From contig KN832557.1 in the NCBI GenBank assembly GCA_000827205.1, positions 1,270,445 through 1,334,444 of the forward strand: a stretch of 64,000 nt of DNA, in the 5' to 3' direction. The notes below the pieces were generated by a model, which was not told the origin of the DNA, did no database searches, and was given only the letters and a program-made list of their open reading frames with translations. Below are positions 3,173-33,548 of this stretch, piece after piece. Made by a program: the position numbers and the translations under genes. Source of the DNA: Plicaturopsis crispa FD-325 SS-3. Lineage: Eukaryota; Basidiomycota; Agaricomycetes; Amylocorticiales; Amylocorticiaceae. How positions within the stretch are numbered: position 1 is the first letter of the stretch; each line of letters opens with the position of its first letter.

Positions 3173-3180
3173 CTCCCACA
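3173..3180. repeat. 8-bp target-site duplication, left copy
   Basis: The octamer CTCCCACA lies directly before the CAGTT terminus of the element and is repeated exactly at 4208-4215, directly after its AACTG terminus. Eight-bp duplications are the hallmark of hAT-superfamily insertion. Confidence 0.8.
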
Positions 3181-3230
3181 CAGTTGCCCACTTTCCGCCC
3201 TAAACCTTAATCCCTAATAAGGCAATTTTG
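3181..3230 (+). repeat. left terminal inverted repeat of hAT-like element
   Basis: Begins CAGTTGCCC and contains TTTCCGCCCT at 3192-3201, followed by a TAAT/CTAA/AAGG core ending in ATTTTG. It pairs with the reverse complement of 4159-4207, with one extra base in the spacer after CAGTT. Confidence 0.75.
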
Positions 3231-4158
3231 GTTTCGGCATTTCGGCGGCGCCTTCGACCGCCGCGTCGGTTCGACGTTCAACAACTGCCCAAGTCCAACA
3301 TATGCATCCTTCATCGCTCAGCGCTGCAGCGGTTGCTCAACGGCCTTCCATCACTTCCTCCCCCATTTAGTAGAAAGCAATCCTCAGCTAATGTACTTAC
3401 TGAAGCCAGAACCGAGCGGGCATGAGGTTGAACAAATATAATTATCATGACATCTTACGGTAAAGTACATACACTCCCCGCAAGACAAACCACCTAGTAC
3501 CGCCGCGTGAGCAAGATATGCTAGAGCGAGCGTCGCCACCGGCGCAATAAGACGACGTGGAGGTGCTAGTGCGGAGATGGCATTGCATAGAGGCGCGTAC
3601 CAGCAGCGGGATGAGATGTCGTCCGGGGGCGCGAGGAAAGGTGGCACAGCGGCGCGAGCGCGTAATCCGTAAGCCAGCGCCTGCAGATGGCCATCGCGTC
3701 GTGCAGATAACATGGCGGGAGCAGCTTCCAGCGGGAACCACGGTGCTCTCGTGTGAGACGTGGAGACGGGGACGCAATGTCGGGCGGAAGCACGATGCCC
3801 AAGGGATGTGAACATGCAATGCACGGTGTCAGCATATAGCAGCAGCGTCCTGGCCCTCGAGAAGGTGCTGGCTGGAGGTGATGAAGTCCGCGGGGGCGAC
3901 GCAGCCGCAGCGAAGCGATGGGACTGTTCAACATGCTTACCTTCTAACCTTCTAACTAACAGCAGGCGGCACGGCTGCAGGCTGTATCCCGCGACGCTGG
4001 TCGCGGTGCTACGGCGTGGTAATGGCGGGGGCACAGAGTGCGGCGGGCGGGCGGCGGGAGGGTTGTACAATGAGCGAACGTTGTCGCGGGAGGTGAGGGA
4101 CAGGTAGACGATCGGCGAGCGCTCTTCGGAGAGTTGCAACAAAATTCAGACCCCGACG

Positions 4159-4207
4159 CAAAATCTCCTTTTTAGTGATTAGAGTTCAGGGCGGAAACTC
4201 AAAACTG
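4159..4207 (-). repeat. right terminal inverted repeat of hAT-like element
   Basis: Read on the minus strand it begins CAGTTTTGAG, then TTTCCGCCCT, matching the left terminus. The duplicated target octamer follows at 4208-4215. Confidence 0.75.
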
Positions 4208-4215
4208 CTCCCACA
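4208..4215. repeat. 8-bp target-site duplication, right copy
   Basis: Exact second copy of CTCCCACA, abutting the right end of the element. Removing the element and one copy would give an uninterrupted CTCCCACACACGG site. Confidence 0.8.
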
Positions 4216-5815: not shown

Positions 5816-8800
5816 ATGGCGCACCAGTCTCCGACGATCTCCATACCGAAGAAGACCACCGAGGAGGTCGACTGGACGACGCCCATCCGCACCCTCATCG
5901 CGCAGTCGTACGGTGAGAACCCAGACAATTACGCCGCCGAATGTGCAGCGCTACAGCGCTGTCGACAAGACGCCGTGCGTGGCGCAGGAAGCGATTTCAC
6001 CGGTGTGTCCTTGCGTGCAGTTGCATTTGGCTACATTGCTGAGCTGAGTGATCCATGTCCACAGCCCGCGATCTCTTGTACAAGTATTTCGGACAGTTAG
6101 AGCTGCTGGAGCTGCGGTTCGCCGAGATACGGGTGAATTTCCCCTGGCACGATGCGTTCACGAACAAGCTTGTCACCCAGACCAGCATTGCGTACGAGAA
6201 GGCCTCGATCCTCTTCCAGATCGCGGTAACACACTCCGCCATCGCGGCCTCGCAGAACAGGTCCGACCCCGAGGGCCTGAAGCGCGCGTTCTACTACTTC
6301 CGTACCTGCGCGGGTATGCTCACGTACATTAACGAGAACTTCTTGCACGCGCCCTCGACGGACCTTAGCCGCGACGTCGTTAAATTCCTCGTCAACCTCA
6401 TCCTCGCGCAGGCCTCCGAAGTATTCTTCGAGAAATGCACGGACGAGAAGAAGGGCAGCGCGCTTGTATCTAAAGTCGGCTCGCAAGTCGCATCTATGTA
6501 TAATTCCCTCTCCGAGGAGGTCAAGGAGTTCATGGGGAAGGGCATTCTCGATCGGAATTGGGTGACGCTGATCCAGATCAAGGCTAAATACTTCACATCA
6601 TTAGCGCAGTACTACAGAGGCCTAGCAGATGCCTCCAGCGGGAAACACGGCGACGCCCTCGTCCGATTCACTGTTGCGGAGGCAGCAGCCAAGGAGGCCG
6701 CACGCACTGCAGCCTCCTTCTCGTCGCTCTTCGTTACCAATATGTCGCCAAACCTCCCCGCAGATGCCGGCTCGTCCATCCATGAACGGACAAAGGCCCA
6801 TCTCGCTCTTTGCACCGAACGGCGGGGGGAGGCGCAGCGCGAGAACGATCTCATCTACAATGAGGCCCTGCCTGCCGCCGAGGCCCTCGCGCCAATTGAC
6901 AAGGCCGTCGTCGCGACACCTATCCCGATCCAGGAGGTATACGGCACGCCCGATGTGCAGAAGGTTATTGGCCCGGACCTATTCCTCCGCCTTATACCAC
7001 TCAGTGTTCACGAGAGCGCGAGCGTCTATTCTGAGGAGAAGGCGAAGCTCGTCCGTGGAGAGGTTGAGAAGGCTGAAAGTGCAGAGGTGGAAGCGCGGAG
7101 CGCGTTGGAAGCTTTGGGCATCAAGGAAGGGCTTGTACGTTTCAAAGCCATGGCGGAGGGAGAAGTCGGAGACGGGGAAGATGTTCCCGTGGAGGTTCGC
7201 CGGTGGCGGGATGATATACAGCTGGTTGAAGAACGGGAAAGCGTCGACAGCTTGATGGGTGAGCTTACACGGCTGAAGGACGGGGTAAGGCGCGAGTTGG
7301 AAGGCGTCTCCCGAGATCTGGAGATTGAGTCGAAGGACTGCGAGATGATGCGAGTGAAATACGAGCATAGGTGGACGCAGGCACCGTCTGCATCGCTCAC
7401 CAAAAATCTTCGGCAGGATCTCAAGGCACACCTCGGTGCGCTCGACGCCGCGAGTGCGTCAGACCAACAGGTCGGCACTCTCTGGGATTCTGTCCGTGGC
7501 GACATCGCACTACTCCTGTCCCCAGGCCTAGAACAGGTGTTCCGCGCCAGTGCGAGTACAGAAGCCGCTGGGGAGAGCCTCCTTGACCTTGACGTCGGCA
7601 CCGAAGTCAATGACCAGAAGGAGCGCGCACGGATCGGCCAGTTCGTGGAGGAGATTGAGGAACGTATTGGGCGACTTGAGAAGATTGGACGCGAGCGACA
7701 AGAGGTTCTCAAGGATCTCAAGGAAAAGGTATTTTTGCTCGTCCTTGTTCCTCTCCTCTCGTCGTTTGTCTAACCGCTAGTTCATTGTCATAGATTCAAA
7801 CCGACGACGTTTCACACTTGTTACTGCTAAATCGGCGGAATACGGGTGTAGAACCAACGCTCTTCGCAGCCGAACTCGAGAAATTCCGTCCTTACCAACA
7901 GCGGCTGGCAGCAACAGTTCACCACCAGCAGGTAGCGCTTCAGGATGTCAGTGTTTTATGGAAAGGCCTCCGCGACCTCGCAGGCCGTGGGCCCGGCGCT
8001 CGAAAGTGGGATGAACGCGAGAAGAGGAAACGTGAGACGGTGAGGAGATTTGAACGGGCGAGAGACGGATATATGGAGGTTCGCGACGGTCTTGCGTGAG
8101 TCTCCCACCGCACAACCTCAACCTCGCACGCCTACTTACTAACTGCTTTGTATATCCAGGAAAGGTCTACAATTCTATCGCGATCTAACAGACTTGGGCA
8201 CTACCCTTCGACAAAATGCGAAGTCCTTTGTCACGGAGCGAAACACAGAGCGTGCATCACTTTCTGCTCAGATATCTCTGGCCGCGCCGGAACGGGAGTA
8301 TGAAAAACCCCCTCGACCACCCCCACCACCCGCATCCGCTCCTGTGGACGCGTTCGCCAATATGAGCATTCGGTCGCCGCCACCGCATCAGTCTCAATAT
8401 GGTTCCCCTCCACCTTCATCGTCACAAATTCGATCGCCCCCACCTCCTGCTCCATCACAGTGGCAGCAGCAGCCACAGCATAGCACATCACACTTTCCTC
8501 CCCCTCCTGCCCCGCCGCAGCAATCTTCGTACTCGCCACAACCATCGTCTCCGTACGCACAACCACCTACACATTCATCGTCGCCTTACCCTCCAGCATC
8601 GGGTCAGCCCCAACAGTCTTCCTCGCAGTACTCATCGGACCCGTATGCTGCACTCGGCATGTTCGCGAATCCCAATTCGGGTGCCCCGAGTGCACCGTAT
8701 TCGACACCACCACCCCCGCCGCCATCTCAATATCAGCCCCCACCTTCGTCGCGATACCAGTCACCTCCCCCACCTCCGTCCCACTCGCAATACCAGTCGT

Positions 8801-14974: not shown

Positions 14975-15905
14975 TCAAAAGACCTTCAAGTCGTCCGGCT
15001 CCGTGACATCTGCGTACATGATATCGGTTCTCATCGTATACTTGACCCCGGACAGCACCTCGTCGCCTGAGTGAAGCAGACCTTGATGCTGGAAGATAAG
15101 CACTCGGCCTGCTTTAGGGTCCACGTCCAGACGCTTTTTCCTGTCTCTAGAATAGAACGTCGTCGCACCCCCAACCAGCGACTCATTGAGGTAAAGATGC
15201 AGGGTGTAGAACGATCGCTCGTGTGTAACGGGATCCTCGTACGGACCATCAGTGTGCGCTACAAGCCTTCAGTCAGCACATCATCGACAAGTGATTGAAG
15301 CCGTGCATACTTTTAAAATATTGACCGGGTCCATACTTCAAGAAGCGCATGCGTTCGTTCAGCCTCGCAAATCGCCATTTAGTCCCAAGCTGCGCCTCGC
15401 GCTTGCCTTGCAATGCAGGGTTTCGTTCGATGGTCCTGAGCGCATCCTCAATTCCTTCAGCCTGACGGCAGCGAGCCCACAGGCGCGCTACGATGGTGTC
15501 GTTATCCCATATTATCCGGTCTGAATTTCGGTAGTGGGTCGCCATCATCTCTTGGCCTACCCCAACGTTCACCATTGCCGGCTTCCACAGCGCAGCACGC
15601 TCACTTGTATCGTCTCTGATGACGCTATCCTCTGCCAAGGTGAGAAGCGTGGCGCATTCCGATGCACTCAATACGTTCTCGAGAACGACTGCATACGAGC
15701 CTGCGTACCCTGGCAGGGTTTGAGAGAAGTCGATGGGTGCGATGGTAATGGGCTGGGCGTCGCTGGGGGTCGTGGTGAGGAAGGAGTTGGGGATATTGAC
15801 AGGTTTCGATGTATATTGGGTAGAGACGAATTGCGCTGGCACGAACGATGACGCAGCCTGGTCGGCAGCCTGTCGTTTGTGGATGATGCTGCTCGTCGTA
15901 AACAT
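14975..15905 (-). CDS. 2OG-Fe(II) oxygenase, prolyl-4-hydroxylase-like, paralog A
   Basis: Two exons (15905-15311, 15258-14975) encode 292 residues. The fold is that of prolyl 4-hydroxylase-type dioxygenases, which use 2-oxoglutarate and Fe(II). The HxD pair is H200 and D202 in the sequence THTDG formed at the exon junction. The distal His lies in GLLHSGDEV, and the 2OG-binding basic residue in VKYTMRTDIMY. The long N-terminal part includes YAGSYAVVLENVLSASEC and LWKPAMVN, shared nearly word for word with the copy at 32585. Relative to that copy it lacks nine residues after LNES. The start at 15905 matches the start of the paralog. An upstream in-frame ATG at 15995 would add 30 residues with Arg/Lys and no acidic residue, which looks like a mitochondrial presequence. 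The substrate is unknown. Confidence 0.85.
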
Positions 15906-16304
15906 ATTACTACCTGTGGGATTCAGGCGAACAACAGCAGGAGACTGCAATATTGACACAAATGGCTTCATAAGTACCTGGCTGCGCAAGATCATATTCC
16001 GAGTCTGCTTGGCGGCAACCTGGAAGCATGCCTAGTACACAGGATAAGTGGCGTTGGACGGAACGACTGTCTTCCGAAGATATCGTGTGGGCTGGCTAGG
16101 GGAGACCTGGGGGAGACTAAAAAGTTCGCGACATCCAAATTCCAATAGGCACTGATCAGGGGCTTGTGGCACCATATTTGGAGGCGTCTATCCCAGGTCT
16201 ATCCCTGCGAGACAGCGGTTCCGTTCAACAGCCTCAGGAGCCCTCCTCCATTTCTTGTCGCTTCGTCGTGAATTTTACTGCTTGCCTCCGCGGAATGCTC
16301 AAAA
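15906..16304. promoter_or_regulatory. divergent promoter between oxygenase A and RTC1
   Basis: About 400 bp separates the two opposing start codons. No named motif was identified. The call rests on gene layout. Confidence 0.4.
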
Positions 16305-32584: not shown

Positions 32585-33548
32585 ATGTTCACGAGCAAGA
32601 TCGCCAACACCTTCCGTAAACTGGCACCCGACAATCCTGCGCCTCCACGTCGACCGGAGCCACCTAAAGTTGTCCGCACAAGTTACACTTCGAAAGCTGT
32701 CGATATCCCCCAGACGTTTCTCACGGAACTACCTGACGACGCGCAGCCCATTACCGTCGCGCACATCGACTTCTCCAGGACTCCTCTGCCAGAGTATGCA
32801 GGCTCGTATGCCGTCGTGCTCGAGAACGTGCTAAGCGCATCAGAATGTGCCATGTTGCTCAAATTGGCCGAAGATAGCGTTATTGGAGGTGACGGGAGCA
32901 GCGATCGTGCCGCGTTGTGGAAGCCAGCCATGGTGAACGCTGGGCCAGGACGTGAGGTCTTGATAACCGAATACCGGAATTCAGACCGGATTATATGGGA
33001 CGATGTAACCCTGACGCAGCGCTTGTGGGCTCGCTGTCTACAAGCTGAGGGGATCGAAGCCGCACTGGGTACCATCGAAGGAGATTCTGCGGTTCAAGAG
33101 AAGTGGGCAGCGCGGTTTGGGCACAAATGGCGATTCACGAAACTGAATGAGCGTATGCGGTTCTTAAAATATGGCCCCGGCCAATATTTCCGAGGTGAGT
33201 ACATGTTCTCGTATGTTGAATGAGGCGCCCACTAAGTAGTCACGAACAGAGCATACGGATGGCGCATATCAGGACCCGGTCACGCACGAGCGCTCGTTCT
33301 ATACCCTACATCTATACCTGAACGACTCGGCACAAACCTGCGCTACCGACAAATCGCTGGTAGGAGGTGCAACGACGTTCTATTCCGATGACATGTCGAG
33401 GCGCCTGGACGTGGATCCGAAAGCTGGCCGAGTGCTTATCTTCCAGCACAAGGGGCTATTGCATTCCGGTGACGAGGTACTATCGGGAATCAAGTATACC
33501 ATGAGGACGGATCTCATGTATGCAGATGTCTCGAAGTCGGAGGATTGA
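32585..33548 (+). CDS. 2OG-Fe(II) oxygenase, prolyl-4-hydroxylase-like, paralog B
   Basis: Two exons (32585-33194, 33250-33548) encode 302 residues. The HxD pair is H205 and D207 in EHTDG, formed across the intron. The distal ligand is H275 in GLLHSGDEV, and R289 or K285 in IKYTMRTDLMY is the likely 2OG anchor. Residues GGATTFYS and RLDVDPKAGRVLIFQHKG belong to the same domain. The protein is closely related to the gene at 14975-15905 in inverted orientation about 17 kb away, with the intron at the same codon position. It has nine residues (AQTCATDKS) missing from that copy. The N-terminus MFTSKIANTFRKLAP is basic and could target mitochondria. The substrate is unknown; the family name does not imply collagen or prolyl substrates. 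Confidence 0.88.

Follow-up and report, generated by a model that had tools for sequence, protein, structure and literature searches.

We found that a 1,027-bp stretch in a contig of the wood-decay mushroom Plicaturopsis crispa is very probably a cut-and-paste DNA transposon that lacks genes, whether through deletion or otherwise, and that it belongs to a small family of which four copies were found in this genome. The element lies in a stretch of 64 kb that was analysed as a whole (the window), which corresponds to C4:1270445-1334444 of a 33.2-Mb assembly of 49 contigs with some N runs.

The window element lies between two identical 8-mers, and its inverted ends are imperfect and about 50 bp long. 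It begins with CAGTTGCCC and ends with CAAAACTG. In the inverted-repeat arms (3192-3230 and 4159-4197), 32 of 39 bases were identical. The octamers, the CAGTT...AACTG ends and this inverted repeat had been described in the initial annotation, and all were re-found in the sequence. Pairs of CAGTT and AACTG spaced 300-2,000 bp apart occur 28 times in the 64-kb window, and only one of the 28, the element at 3181-4207, has identical flanking 8-mers. The description of the element as GC-rich holds in a mild form (57.6% G+C, as against 53.0% for the whole window).

Other features of the stretch were recorded alongside. A BRO1 protein is encoded near the element at 6055-7770; its sequence agrees at 100% identity with one from Plicaturopsis crispa FD-325 SS-3. 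This species (Agaricomycetes, Amylocorticiales) is also listed as Plicatura crispa. Two clearly similar open frames lie about 17 kb apart at 15273-15995 (-) and 32585-33223 (+), both with GSYAVVLENVLSASECA (as judged by eye); the former had no match in Pfam.

Table 1. Coordinates of the window element and its parts, of the other family copies, and of the hAT elements delimited in the same genome.
Feature	Position	Strand	Length	Remarks
Left target-site duplication	3173..3180	.		CTCCCACA; 3181 and 3182 also agree with the bases past the right copy
Window copy, non-autonomous TIR transposon	3181..4207	+	1,027 bp	
Left terminal inverted repeat	3181..3230	+		CAGTTGCCCAC, then core TTTCCGCCCTAAACCTTAATCCCTAATAAGGC...
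252-aa open frame within window copy	3387..4142	-	252 aa	judged not a gene
Right terminal inverted repeat	4159..4207	-		outside inward: CAGTTTTGAG, then core TTTCCGCCCTGAACTCTAATCACTAAAAAGG...
Right target-site duplication	4208..4215	.		CTCCCACA
Family copy	C2:688318-689402		1,085 bp	flanking octamer GCTTGAAG on both sides
Family copy	C37:34467-35687		1,221 bp	flanking octamer TCGTGGGA on both sides
Family copy (L011)	C2:78977-80224		1,248 bp	flanking octamer ATCGACAA on both sides
Delimited hAT (L087)	C7:1115264-1118594		3,331 bp	ends CAGTGTTGTCCA
Delimited hAT (L088)	C12:181542-184940		3,399 bp	ends CAGTGTTGTCAA
Delimited hAT (L014+L082)	C10		4,081 bp	ends TAAAGTTGCCG
Delimited hAT (L013+L083)	C6		4,665 bp	ends TAGGGCTGTCC

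The core of the terminal inverted repeat (TIR) was searched in the assembly with up to 3 mismatches, a setting at which more diverged ends would escape detection. We observed 8 occurrences (4 forward and 4 reverse), which paired, facing each other, into four complete copies of 1,027-1,248 bp, with no unpaired core. The reversed core pattern, used as a control, had 0 occurrences in the same assembly. A genome search using the longest copy (1,248 bp) returned the same four loci and nothing else. The ends seen in the window are therefore also present at three other loci, each copy having its own perfect octamer pair, and the four complete copies share their ends at unrelated sites. The initial annotation had further proposed a search for a longer element carrying a hAT transposase between the same ends. 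No such element, nor any other longer element or solo end with the family's termini, was found in the assembly at up to 3 mismatches to the core, the assembly having N runs. When an 18-base right-end pattern was used with up to 3 mismatches, there were 28 genome matches as against 24 for the control, and we therefore place weight only on the four exact right-end matches. Three sites with 1-2 mismatches to the right end (C4:1532563, C4:1477603 and C26:50605) had no matching octamer downstream within 1.5 kb, and were set aside as chance. The left-end pattern had 0 matches in viral contigs.

We also evaluated the insertions by joining the flanks of each of the four across one octamer and searching the genome for the joined site. 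The C2:78977 insertion lies in a repeat, and its joined site was spanned by 8 paralogous places. Seven of these were uninterrupted: ATCGACAAG stands at six of them, and the remaining one differs by a substitution. At the eighth (L076, C34:53650-54060), 15 bp are missing right around the point of insertion, and this deletion could be an excision scar or a coincidence. For the C37 copy, one place (67% identity) was found to span the junction, and it has TCGTGGGA once. The C2:688318 junction had no spanning place in the genome, though part of its right flank is multi-copy; about 126 bp of this flank, an unrelated repeat, recurs at 98-100% identity in seven other places. The window copy likewise had no empty site in the genome, its flanks matching only themselves; its target site in single form would be CTCCCACA (or CTCCCACAC). 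Since uninterrupted paralogous sites are present for C2:78977 and C37, the paralogues demonstrate insertion for two of the four copies. The octamer is thus perfectly duplicated at all four copies, and single at the empty paralogues of two. A draft assembly with N runs calls for the usual caution, but four copies with four different perfect duplications, together with the empty paralogous sites, make a chance repeat or an assembly artefact extremely improbable.

When the coding content was examined, 7 open frames from the four copies matched 0 Pfam families at E<=0.1. The 252-aa frame of the window copy had no Pfam match and no homologue (0 of 4,185 candidates at E<=10), and it was not kept at such length in the other three copies. 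Its length was reached in 0 of 200 base shuffles of the window copy, which counts against calling it a non-gene; for the other three copies, 107, 139 and 17 of 200 shuffles reached the length of the longest frame. In the closest pair of copies, 3 of 20 indel lengths were multiples of 3, and the differences were even over the codon phases (73/379, 65/383 and 64/380). As multiple-of-3 indels were few and the differences phase-blind, with no Pfam match or homologue, the interior was treated as non-coding. The 252-aa frame was ruled out as a gene by the missing Pfam match and homologue and by its unconserved length. The statement that no transposase is seen in the 1,027 bp is therefore borne out; we found no credible gene, and hence no transposase gene, in any of the four copies.

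The copies differ far more in their interiors than at their ends. Over the six copy pairs, the ends were identical at 118-126 of 130 positions (3-9% different), while the interiors were 60-80% identical (20-40% different), values that are approximate since columns with gaps were excluded and the GC-rich interior is in places difficult to align. If all of this divergence had arisen after insertion, a simple neutral model would give a chance of about 4e-5 that all four octamer pairs stayed intact. Near-fixed ends, diverged interiors and perfect duplications together suggest that lineages already diverged continued to be mobilised. The sequence comparison, with its four copies and uncertain interior alignment, suggests that these lineages stayed mobile and that their ends were held by selection for binding.

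A transposase produced elsewhere would, in our proposal, bind the inverted ends of about 50 bp in trans, excise the element and insert it at a staggered break, whose repair would yield the flanking duplication. The helper would, on balance, be of the hAT kind, and may have been lost, be unassembled or have diverged ends. We consider it rather doubtful that this is an orphan family whose diverged gene-less copies were moved repeatedly by a transposase since vanished from the genome, possibly one of a 9-bp superfamily and not hAT.

The length of the duplication bears on this point. The initial annotation had called it an intact 8-bp duplication, and the 8-mers are indeed perfect in all four copies, while the direct repeat extends to 10 bases at the window copy (CTCCCACACA) and is 9 bases or longer in all four, the extra matching base or bases lying on the right side. 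The repeats therefore do not settle between 8 and 9 bp, and they admit a superfamily that duplicates 9 bp, as the Mutator-like and Merlin-like superfamilies do. A non-autonomous element of this kind would start with AGTTG and not CAGTTG. The ninth repeat base is C in three copies and G on both sides in C2:78977, and the empty relatives of the latter site (six of eight paralogues with ATCGACAAG) indicate that the target itself carried the G. The 8-bp reading consequently needs a mutated first base at C2:78977 that matches the target by accident, and the 9-bp reading needs no mutation there. With 9 bp, 10 bases would also precede the TTTCC core in both arms (by eye). In the other three copies, however, a C at this position is compatible with either reading, 8 bp before CAGTTG or 9 bp before AGTTG. 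In addition, the outer CAGTT of both ends pairs only in the 8-bp reading; with 9 bp and no gaps, only 3 of 10 outer bases agree (by eye). Among the four hATs delimited in this genome, the base after the right duplication equals the first base of the element in three, and the base before the left duplication equals its last base in three. Since a ninth-base match is thus seen in 3 of 4 genome hATs as well, the 9-bp signal is weak, and we regard membership in a 9-bp superfamily as unlikely.

We next turn to the hAT superfamily, which we hold to be the somewhat favoured assignment. The ends of hAT elements start with CAG or TAG (consensus YARNG), with G as the fifth base. In the family, the first three bases are CAG in 7 of 8 ends (the left end of the C2:78977 copy is GAG), and the fifth base of the CAGTT...AACTG ends is T, as against G in the hAT consensus. 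The Dimer_Tnp_hAT domain had 15 matches at 14 loci in the genome, two of the matches being one locus on C30. The family's ends were absent within 1.5 kb on either side of these hits, the best match being 15 of 22 bases. Seven of the 14 loci were read farther upstream for a left end, and three of those seven contain N runs and gave no element. Four hAT elements of 3.3-4.7 kb, with TIRs and perfect 8-bp duplications, could be delimited (Table 1), and the family's ends were absent from all four. In a TIR alignment to the two CAGTG hATs, 30 of 454 control CAGT sites did as well as or better than the best of 8 comparisons, and this similarity was set aside as within chance. A search for the PF21787 domain, which we take to be P-element kin, gave 0 matches, but the controls likewise gave none, so this result shows nothing. 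The Repbase grouping rule, as given in the available text of PMC4455052, asks for equal duplication length and positions 1-11 with at most 1 mismatch; by the rule in that form, the family's ends fail to match those of the four delimited hATs. Of the label non-autonomous hAT-like, the part that stands is a gene-less TIR transposon with duplications. For the hAT part, no transposase with the same ends was found in the assembly, and the termini are unlike those of the four hATs delimited there.

KDZ transposases were also considered as a source of mobility. The genome has 45 KDZ domain matches (exon pieces counted apart), 42 of them above the cut-off. According to the part of PMC12730594 available to us, Zisupton and one Dileera family make 8-bp duplications, in agreement with the perfect octamers of the P. 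crispa family, while Kyakuja duplicates 7 bp and is without TIRs. At the KDZ loci L068, L085 and L086, however, the best matches to the family's ends were 17/26 and 14/20 bases (raw counts), which is no close match, and mobilisation by a Zisupton or Dileera transposase seems to us quite improbable. True termini were looked for at these three loci and none were found. At L086, we noted one pair of 8-mers with TGTCGAG ends at a distance of 7,079 bp. KDZ domains are plentiful in general (e.g. C6:1845136, C36:35028 and C37:13253), in long related elements, several of them on small contigs.

A gene-less cut-and-paste transposon is a kind of element that is already well known. The 15- and 16-base end sequences were absent from the paper text searched (figures and supplements lay outside the search), and no paper text was found that treats hAT transposons of Plicaturopsis. 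Judged from paper text alone, the family is apparently unrecorded, and the initial annotation's claim to this effect is uncontradicted rather than proven. With this family, a mushroom genome gains a clean, small set of DNA transposons that lack genes, and empty paralogous sites document insertion. As its ends are conserved and its interiors diverged, the family can serve to study how elements without genes outlast their helper.

Within the same genome, the C7 and C12 hATs resemble the family in their perfect flanking octamers and CAGT ends, but no significant similarity to their sequences (ends CAGTGTTGTC...) was seen in the family's ends or interior. The domain matches of these two are weak: the C7 element matches DUF659 at 25.4 bits, a score below the cut-off, and the hAT dimerisation region at 20.3 bits in one search and 22 in another, and the C12 element matches the dimerisation region at 30.2 bits. 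The other two hATs, L013+L083 and L014+L082, whose ends we take to be Ac-like and Tam3-like respectively, have 8-bp duplications, comparable to the perfect octamers of the family, and ends unlike its own.

Of the described systems compared, the closest is that of Marasmius oreades, in which, according to the portion of PMC9674265 available to us, the gene-less MarorhAT-4, -11 and -12 (597-631 bp) occur beside the transposase-bearing MarorhAT-10 (3,396 bp), have TIRs that closely match those of MarorhAT-10, and were seen to move. Unlike MarorhAT-4, -11 and -12 as described there, the P. crispa copies are 1,027-1,248 bp long and no helper with the same ends was found; they cannot at present be assigned to hAT. 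In both cases, however, the host is a mushroom, and gene-less TIR elements are present in a genome having a hAT that carries DUF659 together with the hAT dimerisation region (PMC9674265, same portion). By analogy with this system, the P. crispa element would work likewise.
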